Positions 7,556-52,831 of a stretch of 64,000 bases of DNA are shown here, piece after piece. The notes under the pieces were generated by a model, which searched no databases, had not been told where the DNA came from, and saw only the letters and a program-made list of their open reading frames with translations. The stretch is taken from NCBI GenBank assembly GCA_030606485.1, contig JAUWGH010000003.1:310001-374000 (forward strand), in the 5' to 3' direction. Within the stretch, counting starts at the first letter, position 1; each line of letters begins with the position of its first letter. Source of the stretch: Promethearchaeota archaeon. Lineage in GTDB: Archaea > Asgardarchaeota > Lokiarchaeia > Sigyniarchaeales > SOKP01. The position numbers were made by a program, and so were the translations under genes.

Positions 7556-8455
7556 ATGATCGAAGATTATTTAAAAGCTGGAAAAGCCACTGTAAGTGCA
7601 AAAAAGTTGGCACGTCAAATCACCAAACCTGGAACTCCACTAATTGAAATTTGTAATAAATGTGAAGAAAAAATAATAGAAAATGGAGCAGAACTGGCAT
7701 TTCCTTTAAATATTTCATTAAATGAAATCGCAGCCCACTATAGTTCTCCAATTGATGATCAGAGTGTAGTACCTGAAGAAGGGTTACTAAAGTTAGACTT
7801 TGGAGCGCATGTTAATGGATACATCGCTGATACAGCCATTACAATAAATCTAAACCAAGATAAAAAATTTGAAACATTTATTATAGCTGCAGAAGAAGCA
7901 TTAGAAGCAGCAATTGAAAACTTTCGACCCGGTGTTAAATTATTTGAGATAGGAGAAAAAATTTCAGAGAAGATCATTAAACATGGATTAAAACCGATAA
8001 TGAACCTTGGAGGACACAGATTATTACAATATACTTTACATGCAGGGGAATTTGTTCCTAATTTCAAAGATAAAACTCATAATCAAGAAATTCATATTGG
8101 GGATGCATATGCGATTGAACCATTTACTACAAACGGGGTCGGACGTGTAAAAGACGGAAAAAATAGTTATATTTATAGATTTCATAAAGTTATCAAAAAA
8201 AATGTATCGTATGAACTGAAAACTGCAATAAGCCAAATTAAACAAAATTTTTCTACACTTCCATTTAGCCCCCGAGCGATTTTAAAAAAAAAGTTATTAC
8301 CAAAAAATAAAATAATGCAAATTATAAATCGCTTAGCTGGTAAAGGAGCTCTTCAACATTATCCAATTCTTGTCGAAGTAAGAAATGGATTTGTCGCACA
8401 AGCAGAACATACGGTTGTGGTCAATGAAAATGAAACAATAATAACCACTAAGTAA
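7556..8455 (+). CDS. map: Methionine aminopeptidase, type II
   Basis: 299-residue cytosolic metalloprotease that removes initiator methionine. All five metal ligands of the pita-bread fold are visible: Asp in LLKLDFGAHVNGY, Asp in IADTAITINL, His in LGGHRLLQYTLHAG, Glu in AIEPFTTNG and Glu in AQAEHTVVV. The length and the insertion before the C-terminal part are of the archaeal/eukaryotic type II. The ATG at 7556 was chosen over ATG 7544 because GAGGT at 7546-7550 is a good ribosome binding site 5 nt upstream. Part of an operon with aspS and the following nucleotidyltransferase. Confidence 0.95.
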   Translation: MIEDYLKAGKATVSAKKLARQITKPGTPLIEICNKCEEKIIENGAELAFPLNISLNEIAAHYSSPIDDQSVVPEEGLLKLDFGAHVNGYIADTAITINLNQDKKFETFIIAAEEALEAAIENFRPGVKLFEIGEKISEKIIKHGLKPIMNLGGHRLLQYTLHAGEFVPNFKDKTHNQEIHIGDAYAIEPFTTNGVGRVKDGKNSYIYRFHKVIKKNVSYELKTAISQIKQNFSTLPFSPRAILKKKLLPKNKIMQIINRLAGKGALQHYPILVEVRNGFVAQAEHTVVVNENETIITTK

Positions 8456-8486
8456 CAAATTATATAAATAAAATTTGAAATAAAAT

Positions 8487-9341
8487 TTGAAAAATTATAA
8501 TAAGTTATCTTTAATCATTCTCTGTGCAGGAGAAGGAAAAAGAATTCAAAAATTCTTTCCAAAAATTCCCAAATCTTTAATAAAAATAAAAAATCTCGAT
8601 AAATCAATAGTAGAATATACTATAACGCAATTTTTAAATCTAAATTTTAATAAAATTTATCTTATTTATGGATATAAAGCGAACACTTTTATCAAGTATA
8701 TTAAAGATTTGGAATCAAAAAATATAATTGATAAATTTCGCTTAAATAATTCAATAATTCCTGTAAATGCGGAAAAGAATTACCAAAAAGGATCATTTCA
8801 TTCATTTTTGGAAATTTTTAACGAACCTAATTTTACTCTCGATGATAATTTCTTCTTATTAATTCCCGGTGATACACTATTTGAAGATGAATTAATTAAG
8901 GCAATACTTGGATGCATTAAAGAAGAAATAAAGAAGAGGGTTAATATGCCAATTATTTTTTATCGTGAATTTGATAAAAATTTAATGGAAATTTATAAAT
9001 CGAAAAAATGTTTTTCTATTTCTGTTGTAAATATATTGAAGGAAAAAAATCATGAATTCTTAAAATCTATAGAGCAGATTGATATTAAATCTAATAAATT
9101 AGAAGAATCCATTTTTCAAGTGATTCCAATTTATTTCTTCCCTTCTAAATTTTTAGAAGAAATAAGAGATTCGATTGATATTAATCTGGATGACTACTCA
9201 AATTTAACAGAATTCATCAATAATGTCTATTTAAAAGAAAAACAAGTTCTTACTCTTAAAATAAATAAATCTTTAAATTTTTTTGAAGTAGATACAATAG
9301 AAGATTTACAGTTTTTAGAAGCAAATTTCAAAGTTAAATGA
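8487..9341 (+). CDS. Sugar-phosphate/NTP nucleotidyltransferase-like protein
   Basis: 284 residues starting at TTG. The N-terminus has the nucleotidyltransferase signature LIILCAGEGKRIQKFFPKIP followed by KSLIKI, the G-x-G-x-R nucleotide-binding loop and the P-K-x-L-I segment. LLIPGDTLFEDEL supplies the metal-binding Asp. The fold is that of enzymes making NDP-sugars or CDP-alcohols. There is no left-handed beta-helix or acyltransferase part. The substrate cannot be told. It follows map by 31 bp on the same strand. No clear Shine-Dalgarno sequence precedes the TTG. Confidence 0.75.
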   Translation: MKNYNKLSLIILCAGEGKRIQKFFPKIPKSLIKIKNLDKSIVEYTITQFLNLNFNKIYLIYGYKANTFIKYIKDLESKNIIDKFRLNNSIIPVNAEKNYQKGSFHSFLEIFNEPNFTLDDNFFLLIPGDTLFEDELIKAILGCIKEEIKKRVNMPIIFYREFDKNLMEIYKSKKCFSISVVNILKEKNHEFLKSIEQIDIKSNKLEESIFQVIPIYFFPSKFLEEIRDSIDINLDDYSNLTEFINNVYLKEKQVLTLKINKSLNFFEVDTIEDLQFLEANFKVK

Positions 9342-42422: not shown

Positions 42423-43202
42423 GTGTTTTTTCAAGAGATTAGTCAGCTGGCTCACGTTTCAGGGATAACTGCATTTATATCTATTTTGGTGGCATTTCTT
42501 TTAGCGGGGATAATATTAGGTAAAGCCATTAAAGAAAAATCTCGCATTGTATTTGAATTTTCTTTTTGTGTTGTTTTTACAATATCACCATGGTTCCCCT
42601 CAGGTATGGGTTATTTATATTTTTTGATTACAGGAGTACATCTCCCATATGAGATCTATATAATAATTGGAAATCTTTTCCTTCCTCTCGCGATCATTTT
42701 CTGGCTTGATATATATCTTACTACAGTTAGTCCAAGTAGAAGAAATCCAATATTATGTATATATATTTTTTTCTCAATATTTTTCTGGATATATGCTTTT
42801 TATTTCTTATATTTTTCTCCAACTGCTCCTGTTGAAGAGATGTTAGGAATAATAGATGACCCGACAAATCCATTTGATATTGATTACAAAGGGTTTGTTT
42901 TAGTGTATTTAGCAACTAGTATATTTACATCATGTACAACTGGCTTTCATTTTGCTGCAAAATCTTTAAAAATTGAAGATAAAGAAATTCAATGGAAGGG
43001 GAGATTCTTATTAATCGCATTTTTATGCTTCGGAATAAGTGCCATCGCAGATTCAGTTATTCCAATGACTGAGATCTCATTGGTGATTTTCAGAATAATA
43101 TTAATTTTAGCAAATTTGTTTTTCTATATTGGTTTTATTCTGCCAAAGTGGATAAAAAAGATTATCTTTCATGAGGATAAAACCCAGACCGACGGAATAT
43201 AA
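42423..43202 (+). CDS. Seven-helix-like membrane protein of unknown function
   Basis: 259 residues starting GTG 42423. About seven hydrophobic segments (FISILVAFLLAGIILGKAI, FSFCVVFTISPWF, IIGNLFLPLAIIFWLDIYL, ILCIYIFFSIFFWIYAFYF, LVYLATSIFTSCTTGFHFAA, FLLIAFLCFGISAIADSVI, LVIFRIILILANLFFYIGFI) and a short charged tail. The number of helices recalls 7TM sensors, but no retinal Lys or other signature was seen. It is divergent from the secreted-type gene at 40701-42239. Confidence 0.65.
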   Translation: MFFQEISQLAHVSGITAFISILVAFLLAGIILGKAIKEKSRIVFEFSFCVVFTISPWFPSGMGYLYFLITGVHLPYEIYIIIGNLFLPLAIIFWLDIYLTTVSPSRRNPILCIYIFFSIFFWIYAFYFLYFSPTAPVEEMLGIIDDPTNPFDIDYKGFVLVYLATSIFTSCTTGFHFAAKSLKIEDKEIQWKGRFLLIAFLCFGISAIADSVIPMTEISLVIFRIILILANLFFYIGFILPKWIKKIIFHEDKTQTDGI

Positions 43203-43675: not shown

Positions 43676-43789
43676 TTTTTAAGAGGAATTTTTAGTAATA
43701 TCTGGATATTACTTTTTTTTTTTTAGGAATTTAAATACTTAGAATTAGAATTAGACTAATTCATATATAATAGATTTCTTGGATATTTG

Positions 43790-44542
43790 ATGATTAAGGA
43801 CATTTTTATCATAAAGGATGGAATTCCTTTATTAACTGAGCATTGTCCGGAAGTAGGTGGCATCTTTAGTAATAATGATAATGCACTTTTGATTTCGGGG
43901 TTTTTCTCAGCCTTGGATTCTCTATCCGACCAATTTCAAGATTTTGGAAATATTAGTGAATTAAAATTATCTAATGATATGAAATTATCCTTTATGAGGG
44001 ACCCCAAAATTGATAATTTAATCTATATAGCATCAACAGACACAAAAAGTGATGAGAAATCAGTTAAAAAAATATTAAAAAAGATATCTAATTCATTTTC
44101 AAATAAATATAATGCTAATATGTTAGAAAAATGGAGTGGTAAGCGAGCTGATTTTAAAGATTTTAAAGAAGAATTAGAAAAAATTTATAATCAGGATGAT
44201 AATTTGGAAGAGTCTAATAGTAATCAAGTTATAGAAGAAAAACTGGTTGTTCAGAAAAATCACGAAGAAAATGCTAATGAAGATAAAAATGAACAAGTTA
44301 TTGAAGTAAAAACGCCCCCTAAAAAAAATTCATTTTCAAATGCAAAACCATTATTAAGAATTAATTCTAATTCAAATCCAGAACGGTTTTTATCTGGGGA
44401 AATGGCAATAAAGATATTTAAGGAGATAAATGGAAATAATAATATTGCGTATATTGCTCAAAAATTGCAATATGATGAGGTTGAGGTTTTTAATATATGT
44501 AAAAATTTCACAAAAATGGGGCTAATCGCTTTTTCCATGTAA
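43790..44542 (+). CDS. Longin/roadblock-like domain protein with C-terminal helix-turn-helix-like part
   Basis: 250 residues. Residues 1-135 have the layout of small longin/roadblock-type regulators: an opening strand IKDIFIIKDGIPLLTE, then DNALLISGFFSALDSLSDQF, a strand DNLIYIASTDTKSDE and helices. An acidic, Asn/Glu-rich linker follows. The last 50 residues (GEMAIKIFKEINGNNNIAYI, EVFNICKNFTKMGLIAF) look like a small winged-helix-like domain. Longin and roadblock domains in eukaryotes and Asgard archaea act on small GTPases. The neighbouring convergent surface protein carries a similar domain on its cytosolic side. Domain assignment is by pattern only. Confidence 0.5.
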   Translation: MIKDIFIIKDGIPLLTEHCPEVGGIFSNNDNALLISGFFSALDSLSDQFQDFGNISELKLSNDMKLSFMRDPKIDNLIYIASTDTKSDEKSVKKILKKISNSFSNKYNANMLEKWSGKRADFKDFKEELEKIYNQDDNLEESNSNQVIEEKLVVQKNHEENANEDKNEQVIEVKTPPKKNSFSNAKPLLRINSNSNPERFLSGEMAIKIFKEINGNNNIAYIAQKLQYDEVEVFNICKNFTKMGLIAFSM

Positions 44543-44565
44543 TTAAAAAAGAAAAATTTTTAATT

Positions 44566-47500
44566 TTAAATACTACCAGGAATTGGTATAAAATATCTAA
44601 AATCTATTAGATCATATGTATTAGCAACTATTTCTTCCTTCGATTTTTTAGGTAAGGCTGAAATTAAGTAAGTTAATAATTTACTGATAAAAAATGATTT
44701 GTAATCTATTTCTAATGTCTTGGCTAAAGAAATTATGTTTTTCTGAAGGAGATTCAATTTTATTCTATGTGGATTTTTATTTACAATGTGAGGAAAAGAT
44801 AAATTCAATTTTAATACTTGATTAATAAGTTCCATATGATCACTGAAAGGTCTAAGATCACCAGAGAATACTTCTAAATATTTTTCGTATTTTTTCTCAA
44901 ATTCTTCAATAAATTGCGAAACTAATATCTTTAGATTCTCTGAAGGTTCAGATGTTAATGTTAATGCCAATCGAATAAATTTTCCATCTTGAAGAAAAAT
45001 AATGTAATCTTGGTAATCTATTTTAAAACCACCCGTAGATTCTTCCAATTTAGCACCTGGCTTTAATTCATATTTAAATTCCATAATTGCTTGAAGGAAA
45101 CCACTCACTAAAGTACCATCAAATTTAATTTGTCTAAATTCCTTCGTTATTAAAGCAAGGCCACTTAATTTATGGATAACTATTAAATATTCAATGTTTA
45201 GTATATCTGAAAATTTATTAGTTTTTTCGTACCAAATTTGTTTTCTCTTCTTTTTCCTTGAGTAATTTACTAAAATATAAGAGGTAATTATTAATAAAAA
45301 GCCCGCAATAAAAGGAATCAAAAGTAAAAATTCTGAAATAAATTGTTCTGTTGTTGATCTAACATCTATATTCGTTATACTGATACTTGAGTTTCTATTA
45401 TTAATAGTTCCGTCGAAAAGAACTTTTATTTCTATTGAATTAACTTTTCCTATAATATGGTGAACAATAGCATATCCATTATTACCAGTAATTGTGGGAA
45501 TGTTAATAACTAATAAATCTCCATTCTCAGAGATTTCTATTATTTGAAAAATAATTGATTCATTTGCTAATGGATTTTCTCCGGATTTTAAAATCACTTC
45601 AAGTTCAATCAAATCATCCCAAACATAAAAATCCTTAAAATTATTAAGAAATTCTAAGCTACTATTTTCTCTTTTCAATACAGTTATATTTATTGATGTT
45701 TCTACTGGTGTGTAGTCAGAAGCATTCATTTCAATTTTAACTTCATATATTCCTGGATTTAAATTACCAAGATTTAAAGTTCCTTGATACCACCCAAAAT
45801 TTGAGACTACTGGTATAAATTCGTCAGAATATGGAATAAATCCTTCGATTTTCATCTTTACATGAGCATCCAAAATATCTTGCTGACGAAATGTATCTTT
45901 TAATATAACAATTAATTCAAGGTCTTGCTCTTGATATAAAGTTAAATTACGAAAATCTTCTGAAATTTCAATAGTTGAAGGATAAGGATTGATATAAACA
46001 GATCTTTCTTCAAAATAAGTTCTAAATTTGGGTTTTGTTATAGTAATTTTTAGGTTATAAGTTTCATTAATATTAAGGTTAGTGGAATCTAAAAATAGTT
46101 TGAAAATACCTGGTTCAGTGGAAGCGAAACTCAATTTATTTTCTCCCAGATAAGCATTTATTAAAGCTGTTTCAATTGGACCGTAAGCATATGAGAGATT
46201 GAGAATTACACTTTTACTCAGGTCATTTGTATAAACGACGGGAATCGGATCAAGATCAACATTAAAATCTGCTGGTATAAATGTCAGATTATAATTTATA
46301 CTTGATTCATTATAAGTAATATTACTTTCACGAGCTTTGCTAGCTTTTATGGTTAAATTATAATAACCAATATCTAAATAATCTAAAAGAAAAGTGATAT
46401 TGTATCTATTTGGTATTTCTGAAACAATATATGCATAAGAGGGAATTAAATCAGTCCCATTATTAATTATAAATTGTCCATTAGTTAGATTTTCTTTTTG
46501 AGCTTTGCTTTCATCATGGAATCTCACGCATACAAATGGAGTATCTCCATATATAACATTTTGGGGTGAATGTGAAAGAATTGTTAAATTGGTGATATGT
46601 GGTGGGTTATATATTTTGAATGTATCATTTTGATTAACTTCTAAATAACTTCCAATTTTTATCGCATAAAATTCAATAGTTAAATTTTCTAATTCTCTAC
46701 CATCAAATAATATTTCAGTTAATAATGTGATATCATAGTTTCCATCATTATGATCAAAAATATTATAAGCTATATCACTTATGGATTGCCTTCCACCATT
46801 TTCTGCTGAAAAATTTACCCAAATTGAAAAATCAACATCAGAAACACTTTCATTAGTAATAGAATCATTTAAGTAAATATAGTAAGTAGCATAATCTCCT
46901 AAGACAAATGTATTATTTTCTTTATTAGCTCCAGTAATTGTCATATTAAGGGATCTATATTTGATATTTAAAGTTGAATTATACGTATAACTAGAGAAAT
47001 ACATATTTTCTGCTGTAAAGTTAATAAGATAATCTCCAGCGGGTAAATCAGGTTGGGTTGTATCAATTGTTATATTTAATAATCCTGTATTTATTGAATC
47101 GATGTAATAATGCTTATATTCCGATAATGACTTCCAAGTGCCAGAGGTGGAATTTATTTGAACGATTAAATCGTCTAAATCTAATGATTCATTATTATAT
47201 GAATTATTTATAGAAAAGAGATAAGAAGCAAAATTATTTTTATAAACTAAAGAATTAGATTCTAATAATATCATATTCATTTGAGATAAGGTTACATTAA
47301 ATACTAATGTTTCAATTCCTGCCATAGTGCCATTATTAGAATGAATTTGTAATCTAATTTGTGTATTATTTTCTTTCGCACCAGTATCCTGATCAGGGCG
47401 CCATATAGGAAAGAAAAAATTACTTTCAGTAATATTATCTTCAAGTATTACATCTAATACAGAAGTATATATATACATTGAAGTAGCACCATTGGAGTTA

Positions 47501-48945
47501 TTAAATTGAACAGAAACATTTATATAATCCGTTATATTAGCAAAATTCATAATATTAATCCATGTTTGATTATTATTACTTGATTGGATTTGAGTGCTTA
47601 AAATTGCATTAGTTTGATTAAAGGTACATCTCCAGTTATTGTTTGAGATATTAAGAAGATCAATAAAATTTGGATTAACAATAACTTCAGTATCGCTAAA
47701 TAACACACTTTCATTATAGGTGCAATTATACCTCCAGAATTTAGGTTTATAAAAACGTGCAGTATTATTTCGAGAATCGCTTGGAAAATGATTCATAAAT
47801 AAAGTTGAATTCCATAAGATGTCTTTTCCAACTGTCGCATTAAAAGTAGAAGAAGATTTTGTGTTATATTTAAAATTTCCTAGAAAAGATACATTATATT
47901 TTACCTCATTAAACCATAATGAAGATATTGGAATGTGAAATTGATTATTTTCATTTGGAAAAAAGGCTTGATTATGATAAATTCCAGAAATATTAACTGG
48001 TGTGCCAAATACGGTTAAATTTATTTGATCTGGCGTTGGTGTGTTGGTTAATGGAGCTAAATTTACTTTAAGTAAGCCATTTTTTCCAGTTTGTTCAATC
48101 CATGAATCACTTAAGGGAAATCTTTTATAAAAAATATTTTCATATTGATCATTTGGTTCCTCGAAAGCATAGAAAATAAAACCCCGTTTATCCATAAATC
48201 CACCATAAGCAATATCAATTACATGAAATACAGCAAAAAATGTATTATTAACAGTTTTTGATATATTCAAAATTATATTAGTATAATTTGCTTGATACCA
48301 TTTAGCTGGTTGATAATATACTTCATTTTCTAAATCAAAAGTGAAATTATCATAAGCATCATCTAAAGTCTCATTTGGAACTATTTTACTGTTTTCATCA
48401 ATAGTAGCATTATAAATCCTAATGGTAAATATGGATTGGCCTGATGGTACACCAATTTCTCCCGGATATTGAATAAGCATTGAGATATTTCTAACATAAC
48501 ATGAATTTGGAATTTCAAATGATGAGGAATAATAATCGTCAGTATCATTAAATTCATCAGCATCACCACTTCTTATTTCAAAGGGAATATATTTTTCAGT
48601 AGTATATAGACTTGTAAAATTTAACTCAAAATTTGTCATATTCCAACCAAGAACGGAATTATTGTATGTAATACCACTATCTTCAGTAGTTTGATTTATA
48701 AAAGTGAAATTTCTAGAGGAATAGAGAGAGACATTTTGAGAAAGACCCACATCGATAAAAGAACCTTGGCCAATCTCGGCAGAATTTTTAAGTTTCTGAC
48801 CATAGGAATCTTCATATATAATTTCATTATTATCTGATTTTAAATCATTTCCAAATAGAGTAAGATCTGAAATAACTATTTGAAAAACTGATATAGTAAC
48901 AATTAAACAGCCTAAAAATATTATCCACTTATTATTTTTCCTCAA
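44566..48945 (-). CDS. Giant surface protein with beta-domains, one membrane helix and cytosolic longin-like domain
   Basis: 1,459 residues starting TTG 48945. Signal peptide (NNKWIIFLGCLIVTISVFQI), then about 1,150 residues of beta-rich, Asn-rich repeats with dozens of N-x-S/T sequons (LNISKTVNNTF, YNESVLFSD) that look like stacked Ig-like or carbohydrate-binding domains. A membrane helix lies near 1205-1226 (FLLLIPFIAGFLLIITSYIL), then KKKRK. The last 233 residues are cytosolic and contain EYLIVIHKLSGLALITKE and SGFLQAIMEFKYEL, similar in layout to the longin-like protein encoded at 43790-44542. It is a candidate receptor linking the surface to cytosolic GTPases. No ligand can be named. Confidence 0.7.
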   Translation of the reverse strand: MRKNNKWIIFLGCLIVTISVFQIVISDLTLFGNDLKSDNNEIIYEDSYGQKLKNSAEIGQGSFIDVGLSQNVSLYSSRNFTFINQTTEDSGITYNNSVLGWNMTNFELNFTSLYTTEKYIPFEIRSGDADEFNDTDDYYSSSFEIPNSCYVRNISMLIQYPGEIGVPSGQSIFTIRIYNATIDENSKIVPNETLDDAYDNFTFDLENEVYYQPAKWYQANYTNIILNISKTVNNTFFAVFHVIDIAYGGFMDKRGFIFYAFEEPNDQYENIFYKRFPLSDSWIEQTGKNGLLKVNLAPLTNTPTPDQINLTVFGTPVNISGIYHNQAFFPNENNQFHIPISSLWFNEVKYNVSFLGNFKYNTKSSSTFNATVGKDILWNSTLFMNHFPSDSRNNTARFYKPKFWRYNCTYNESVLFSDTEVIVNPNFIDLLNISNNNWRCTFNQTNAILSTQIQSSNNNQTWINIMNFANITDYINVSVQFNNSNGATSMYIYTSVLDVILEDNITESNFFFPIWRPDQDTGAKENNTQIRLQIHSNNGTMAGIETLVFNVTLSQMNMILLESNSLVYKNNFASYLFSINNSYNNESLDLDDLIVQINSTSGTWKSLSEYKHYYIDSINTGLLNITIDTTQPDLPAGDYLINFTAENMYFSSYTYNSTLNIKYRSLNMTITGANKENNTFVLGDYATYYIYLNDSITNESVSDVDFSIWVNFSAENGGRQSISDIAYNIFDHNDGNYDITLLTEILFDGRELENLTIEFYAIKIGSYLEVNQNDTFKIYNPPHITNLTILSHSPQNVIYGDTPFVCVRFHDESKAQKENLTNGQFIINNGTDLIPSYAYIVSEIPNRYNITFLLDYLDIGYYNLTIKASKARESNITYNESSINYNLTFIPADFNVDLDPIPVVYTNDLSKSVILNLSYAYGPIETALINAYLGENKLSFASTEPGIFKLFLDSTNLNINETYNLKITITKPKFRTYFEERSVYINPYPSTIEISEDFRNLTLYQEQDLELIVILKDTFRQQDILDAHVKMKIEGFIPYSDEFIPVVSNFGWYQGTLNLGNLNPGIYEVKIEMNASDYTPVETSINITVLKRENSSLEFLNNFKDFYVWDDLIELEVILKSGENPLANESIIFQIIEISENGDLLVINIPTITGNNGYAIVHHIIGKVNSIEIKVLFDGTINNRNSSISITNIDVRSTTEQFISEFLLLIPFIAGFLLIITSYILVNYSRKKKRKQIWYEKTNKFSDILNIEYLIVIHKLSGLALITKEFRQIKFDGTLVSGFLQAIMEFKYELKPGAKLEESTGGFKIDYQDYIIFLQDGKFIRLALTLTSEPSENLKILVSQFIEEFEKKYEKYLEVFSGDLRPFSDHMELINQVLKLNLSFPHIVNKNPHRIKLNLLQKNIISLAKTLEIDYKSFFISKLLTYLISALPKKSKEEIVANTYDLIDFRYFIPIPGSI

Positions 48946-52105: not shown

Positions 52106-52300
52106 AATAGAATGATAATTTTGAGATAGAATAAAATTTTAAAATACTCCCCAAGTAATAATAATTTTTAATAACAATTATGTAAATCTATATAATAATC
52201 AATAAGATTAAAGAAATTTTTTTAAATATCACGATTAGTATATAATATATTAAGTTCAATGAAAGAATTATTTAAGATAATCTAATTCAAGGTGAAAAAG

Positions 52301-52831
52301 ATGCGAGATGCCGTTTTCAAGATGTTTATTTGTGGAGAGGGTGGTGTAGGGAAGACTACATTAACTAATCGATATGTTACAGGGATTTTTAAAGACCAAT
52401 CGATGACTATTGGACTTGATTTTTACCTCAAAGATGTTGAGATTGAAGATAGAAAGGTTTCTTTACAAATATGGGATTTTGCTGGCGAATCACGTTTCAG
52501 AGCTTTAATTGGTGGTTATGTGAGAGGAGCTACGGGAGGAATTTTCATGTATGACATCACAAGATATTCTACTTTAATAAATATAGATGAATGGCTTGAG
52601 ATAATTGGTCAAAATTTAAAAGATAGCTATGAGGATATTCCAATAATTTTAGTCGGGGGAAAAGCAGATTTAGATGAAATTAGATCTGTAACTAAAGAAG
52701 ATGCAATAGAGGTTGGAAAGTCTCGACATTTATATGGATTTATTGAATGTTCCGCAAAATCCGGTCAAAATGTAGAATCAGTATTTACAAGCTTAGCACG
52801 TGCAATGATGGAAAATGCTAATTTAATTTAA
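52301..52831 (+). CDS. Ras-superfamily small GTPase with altered G3 and G4 motifs
   Basis: 176 residues from ATG 52301 (CAAGGTG 5 nt upstream; the GTG inside it is not the start). P-loop GEGGVGKTT, G2 Thr in SMTIGLD, G3 WDFAGESRF and G5 ECSAKSG. In G3 the Gln normally used for GTP hydrolysis is Glu (AGE). G4 reads GGKADL rather than NKxD, losing the Asn that helps select guanine. No C-terminal prenylation Cys and no lipid-attachment signal, so membrane contact would need a partner. It follows the lipid synthase gene. Confidence 0.93.
   Translation: MRDAVFKMFICGEGGVGKTTLTNRYVTGIFKDQSMTIGLDFYLKDVEIEDRKVSLQIWDFAGESRFRALIGGYVRGATGGIFMYDITRYSTLINIDEWLEIIGQNLKDSYEDIPIILVGGKADLDEIRSVTKEDAIEVGKSRHLYGFIECSAKSGQNVESVFTSLARAMMENANLI

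Follow-up and report, generated by a model that had tools for sequence, protein, structure and literature searches.

INTRODUCTION

Eukaryotes control small GTPase switches with longin domains, and the Ras-superfamily GTPases of Asgard archaea, which number in the dozens, have no inputs that we know of. Dimers of longin or roadblock domains serve as platforms with which small GTPases make contact, as in MglB-MglA, TRAPP-Rab1, and Ragulator-Rag (PMC10933270). Lokiarchaeum has 41 longin-like domains, of which five are joined to an Arf-like GTPase (for a review, see PMC4917890), and structures of Asgard longins have been reported (PMC10933270). Asgard multidomain longins with Vps28-C, adaptin appendage, TPR, or HTH domains have also been described, with GTPase activation as a suggested function (PMC10936438). 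According to a structural study, Asgard GTPases are not matched to regulators by any general rule of operon organization (PMC10933270).

The protein family described here shares its fold, its phylum, and its kind of GTPase fusion with these longin expansions and longin-Arf fusions. However, the accounts in PMC4917890 and PMC10933270 contain neither receptors built from a signal peptide, an ectodomain, and a transmembrane (TM) segment nor multi-TM longin proteins, and the word "transmembrane" does not occur in PMC10933270. The longins of PMC10936438 are likewise terminal in large multidomain proteins, but they are linked to ESCRT and lack the giant glycosylated ectodomain of the receptor presented below. 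Asgard longin expansions and longin-GTPase fusions are known. In the open-access literature that we searched, neither receptors with a longin tail nor multi-TM longin proteins were described.

Among eukaryotic systems, the tri-longin RabGEFs MON1-CCZ1 and FUZ-INTU provide the Pfam longin models closest to relatives of our proteins, and their longin surfaces contact Rab GTPases; they differ in being soluble heterodimers of three longin domains with no ectodomain. MglB and LAMTOR have the fold in common with the receptor tail but are roadblock proteins by sequence, and the proteins studied here have no match to the Robl_LC7 profile. NPRL2 and NPRL3 of GATOR1 consist of a longin domain followed by a winged helix, as does a 251-aa protein at our locus. 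The latter is far smaller than NPRL2, and one of its orthologs matches NPR2 weakly, below the cut-off and outside the longin part (E-value of 4e−4, residues 138 to 248 only).

RESULTS

We analyzed a stretch of 64,000 nucleotides of Promethearchaeota archaeon DNA, here called the window. In it, the gene of a giant membrane protein, called the receptor below, and the gene of a small soluble protein are convergent, with 23 bp between their stop codons. The features are as follows.

42423 to 43202 (+): multi-TM protein, homologue of the gene that follows a longin-like/GTPase pair (E-value of 3e−46)
43787 to 44542 (+): soluble protein with a longin fold at residues ~1 to 125, a linker, and a C-terminal winged helix (AlphaFold2, Foldseek)
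44566 to 48945 (−): giant single-pass surface protein of 1,459 aa (ORF, signal peptide, one TM helix, sequon enrichment)
44569 to 44799 (−): C-terminal helical extension of the receptor tail, winged-helix-like by secondary structure
44800 to 45198 (−): predicted cytosolic longin/roadblock-fold domain of the receptor (AlphaFold2, Foldseek, profile A6)
45268 to 45324 (−): TM helix, residues 1208 to 1226, then a positively charged stop-transfer stretch (hydropathy)
45360 to 48855 (−): ectodomain (approximate) with 61 sequons (sequon count, blastp)
52292 to 52831 (+): Rab-like small GTPase of the same subfamily as the GTPase beside receptor L015
59229 to 59771 (−): second Ras-superfamily GTPase, for which we found no specific link

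With the ATG at 43790 as its start, the soluble protein has 250 aa, and otherwise 251 aa. The initial annotation had located both ORFs correctly, and the two GTPases that it had seen in the window are indeed members of the Ras superfamily. Scanning the window for Rfam families and tRNAs returned no matches.

Hydropathy places a signal peptide at residues 8 to 26 of the receptor and one strong membrane helix ahead of the sequence SRKKKRKQ. The 61 N-X-S/T sequons of the ectodomain compare with 22.6 ± 4.1 in composition-preserving shuffles, 36 being the highest count among 500 shuffles, and the tail has just 2. Judged by the charge of SRKKKRKQ and the distribution of the sequons, the tail should be cytosolic. 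A signal peptide, a sequon-rich outer part, one helix, and a cytosolic tail had been proposed for this protein before, and hydropathy, charge, and sequon shuffles uphold that layout. The ectodomain is locally similar to those of other longin-tailed receptors (blastp E-values of 3e−16 for L101/L119 and 3e−12 for L129). The tail is 96 to 97% identical in the same-genus genomes G002 and G003.

The tail was modeled with AlphaFold2 from an alignment of 32 homologous tails from other genomes. The model has a helix-bbabbba core and a helical extension that is conserved among receptor tails (pLDDT of 84.5, pTM of 0.73). The model of the 251-aa protein, for which the alignment was thin and contained only remote homologues, shows bbabbba(a), then a linker that is disordered, and an end that resembles a winged helix; its mean pLDDT is 72.6, with about 85 to 90 through most of the N-terminal domain. 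In roadblock/LC7 proteins, a helix that packs on the sheet comes ahead of strand 1; the tail model has a helix (2-20) ahead of strand 1, which may or may not pack in this way, and the 251-aa protein has none. In Foldseek searches against the PDB, all 50 matches listed for the tail and all 50 listed for the 251-aa protein were longin/roadblock structures or complexes containing them; for the tail they include AP and COPI small chains, Sec22b, TRAPP, Ragulator, MglB, and an Asgard roadblock protein, and the target-normalized TM-score is 0.64 for MglB and 0.69 for a subunit of Ragulator. AlphaFold2 and Foldseek together thus confirm the longin/roadblock fold that the initial annotation had read from the strand-helix pattern of the tail and of the N-terminal part of its neighbor. 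The most conserved element of the family is the LISGFLxAI helix; in roadblock proteins, the equivalent central helix mediates dimerization (PMC10933270, Fig. 7 legend).

Neither window protein scored above the cut-off in Pfam or NCBIfam, and a search of PDB sequences was similarly unconvincing. The relatives are more telling. The tail profile matches L022, which is encoded in the same genome and consists of this domain and a small GTPase, at an E-value of 2e−11; L022 in turn matches Longin (1.7e−5) and the FUZ/MON1 longin (6e−5), with a weak further match to the clathrin adaptor small chain. Two further relatives exceed Pfam cut-offs, namely, L210 for Longin (27.0 over 26.2) and L254 for Fuz_longin_1, the FUZ/MON1 longin (27.8 over 26.1). 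Because L022, L210, and L254 lead to the Longin and FUZ/MON1 models, we assign the domain by sequence to the longin family and not to roadblock. SNARE profiles gave no match to the window proteins, which have a winged-helix-like or helical extension where the SNARE coiled coil would stand. The profiles of the tail and of the 251-aa protein both match the intermediates L017 and L022, and hhalign aligns the two domains with an E-value of 2.5e−4, though with a probability of only 43%; on this profile evidence, the two longin domains of the window are homologous to each other.

Profile A6, which finds the tail domain of the receptor at an E-value of 2e−41 in its own genome (G000), detects 23 copies there, and the domain profile is matched in 146 of 148 Asgard genomes, often with at least 20 copies. 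Three of the G000 proteins are giants with one TM segment and a longin end (1,459, 1,553, and 1,318 aa); the other carriers are multi-TM proteins of 356 to 751 aa, a RelA/SpoT-TPR-SLOG protein, and soluble proteins. Giants with the order signal peptide, ectodomain, TM segment, and longin domain also occur in other Asgard classes, as assigned by kinship labels (L244 to L247; the starts of L246 and L248 are missing, cut by the contig or the stretch). The largest longin receptor that we found has 3,031 aa (L122:4241-13336). Two proteins from different families, of 751 aa (L016:4132-6387) and 720 aa (L249:1024-3186, family f18), combine ~15 predicted TM segments with a C-terminal longin domain; all TM counts given here are simple hydropathy counts. 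The receptor of the window is one member of a set of membrane proteins, found across Asgard archaea, with a longin domain inside the cell, and the recurring layout suggests, short of proof, that outside signals are passed directly to GTPases.

Some other carriers deserve mention. A group of 356- to 383-aa proteins has about 6 to 7 predicted helices and a layout that resembles a receptor with a GTPase-platform tail: L018:2560-3657(−) and L018:3669-4820(−), which form a tandem pair, L020:3483-4553, L171:11794-12924(−), and L105:3590-4693(−). A cytosolic longin domain was confirmed by profile in all except L018:3669-4820. The TM parts of this group have no Pfam match, and phmmer finds no match between the TM modules of one multi-TM longin protein and another. 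L021:4967-7483(−), of 838 aa, joins RelA/SpoT, TPR, and SLOG (LSDAT_prok) domains to a C-terminal longin domain, and a Rab-like GTPase lies about 0.65 kb away (8131-8691). L210:1031-1798(−), of 255 aa, combines longin and V4R (TRAPPC3-like) domains, and about 0.2 kb from it lies the gene of a protein of 335 aa that ends, C-terminally, in a small-GTPase domain (L210:1993-2997, −).

The link of the family to small GTPases is most direct in fusions. Longin-GTPase fusion proteins of about 290 to 305 aa are present in G000, G001, G050, G046, and G056, the last being a 1.42-Mb genome of another Asgard class by its kinship label. The sister receptor L015 of G000 is followed on the same strand, after 57 bp, by a Rab-like GTPase in an apparent operon, and a GTPase likewise follows L149, a receptor of the same genus (G003), at about 0.2 kb. 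The window GTPase at 52292 is 54% identical to the GTPase beside L015 and falls in the same subfamily, three other members of which have no receptor neighbors. The nearness of the two window GTPases to the receptor is unremarkable by itself, because G000 has about 50 to 60 Ras-superfamily GTPase genes in 3.75 Mb. GTPase density in the flanks of 40 receptor regions is 29 per Mb, versus 9 per Mb in 20 control regions and about 13 to 16 per Mb genome-wide (P of about 0.03 before correction for shared ancestry); this two- to threefold enrichment over the controls is weak, and conserved synteny accounts for much of it.

Other Lokiarchaeota have a set of three genes about 3 kb from a receptor. A ~186-aa protein, longin-like by eye and with a winged helix, is encoded by a gene that overlaps an Arf-like GTPase gene by 4 bp (L078:12909-14858, −, and equivalents in L076 to L100), and a homologue of the window's multi-TM protein comes next in about ten of these loci. 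The set is not independent evidence, because it lies inside a large conserved block; in G000, the longin-like/GTPase pair sits away from the window receptor.

DISCUSSION

We propose that a small GTPase docks on the receptor tail, which would serve as a membrane-anchored platform and be altered by a change in the ectodomain; we give this reading slightly better than even chances. We hypothesize that the tails dimerize and dock a GTPase and that engagement of the ectodomain shifts that state. A ligand, a contact, or clustering would change the ectodomain and thereby alter the longin tail, perhaps via its dimer state; the altered tail would then recruit, activate, or switch off a Rab- or Arf-like GTPase at that membrane patch. 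The layout, the fold, the spread of the family, and the domain-GTPase fusions were obtained by computation; tail dimerization, GTPase binding, the direction of the signal, and the ligand are what we infer. Some longins, such as those of SNAREs, do not regulate GTPases; the longin family described here, taken together, is linked to them.

A wider reading is plausible, though we would not yet call it probable: Asgard receptors throughout the phylum would signal via longin domains to small GTPases, and the system would predate eukaryotes. Tentatively, and with about the same reserve, the receptor class would then take in the giant glycoproteins with one helix as well as proteins with several, in some cases about seven. 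If true, surface proteins with a longin end would connect the cell's exterior directly with Asgard GTPases. Longin receptors would make the question of what these GTPases are for testable, and they would bear on whether signaling preceded membrane traffic in the origin of eukaryotes.

The strongest alternative, which we consider rather unlikely, is that the longin tail serves in sorting or as a scaffold, like the small chains of AP and COPI or like VAMP7 and Ykt6. The tail would then set the destination or clustering of the protein, perhaps as the effector of an Arf-like GTPase, with no signal-driven change in GTPase state. Consistent with this, the best Foldseek matches of the window models, among those listed, are AP sigma/mu and COPI longins and VAMP7. 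The domain is also found on transporter-like and other multi-TM proteins, where a localization tag fits; one such protein, L019:3515-5167, is weakly MFS-like (E-value of 1.6e−5, below the cut-off) and has a C-terminal longin domain. However, GTPase fusions that are conserved across classes favor a GTPase-proximal role, and to our knowledge no coat complexes have been established in Lokiarchaea.

It is distinctly less probable that the protein is mainly a structural surface glycoprotein or adhesin, S-layer-like, whose tail anchors or dimerizes it and carries no signal. The large, N/T/S-rich beta ectodomain would suit such a function. So would the sister species G001, which lacks the receptor and has an unrelated, longin-less surface protein of 1,372 aa at the same site (L172:7504-11622, −), made up of many near-identical WTTTEVVSTEST repeats and a C-terminal TM anchor. 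This swap means that the site tolerates the exchange of surface proteins and is a variable spot for them. Yet identity within the family is higher in the tail (about 30 to 44%) than in the ectodomain (about 25%), and the tail domain is common to unrelated membrane modules and enzymes.

The initial annotation had proposed a surface-to-GTPase system with a conserved pairing of receptor and neighbor. The family-level link of longin domains to GTPases stands, by virtue of the fusions and the apparent L015 operon, but the claim that the receptor, its neighbor, and the window GTPases form one system is not supported. The 251-aa gene is kept through family f1, in many genera, beside 98-aa and phosphatidyltransferase-like genes and with no receptor, which is found next to it only in the source genus; conserved pairing is thereby ruled out. 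Synteny also rules out a specific link of the GTPase at 52292 to the window receptor. Because the 251-aa gene and this GTPase both persist where the receptor is missing, the three genes are not a conserved unit, and the 251-aa protein is a separate longin and winged-helix regulator, not a dedicated receptor partner. A longin heterodimer of receptor tail and 251-aa protein acting on the window GTPases is accordingly very improbable, for although the genes are adjacent and convergent, encode homologous longin domains, and retain their arrangement in G002 and G003, the 251-aa gene occurs in many other genera with no receptor and the GTPase at 52292 remains at the receptor-free locus of G001. In some genera, a protein that by eye resembles a CheR methyltransferase fused to a CheD-like domain is encoded between the orthologue of the 251-aa gene and the 98-aa gene (L183:7517-9568, L185:7225-9081, and L187:5790-7811).
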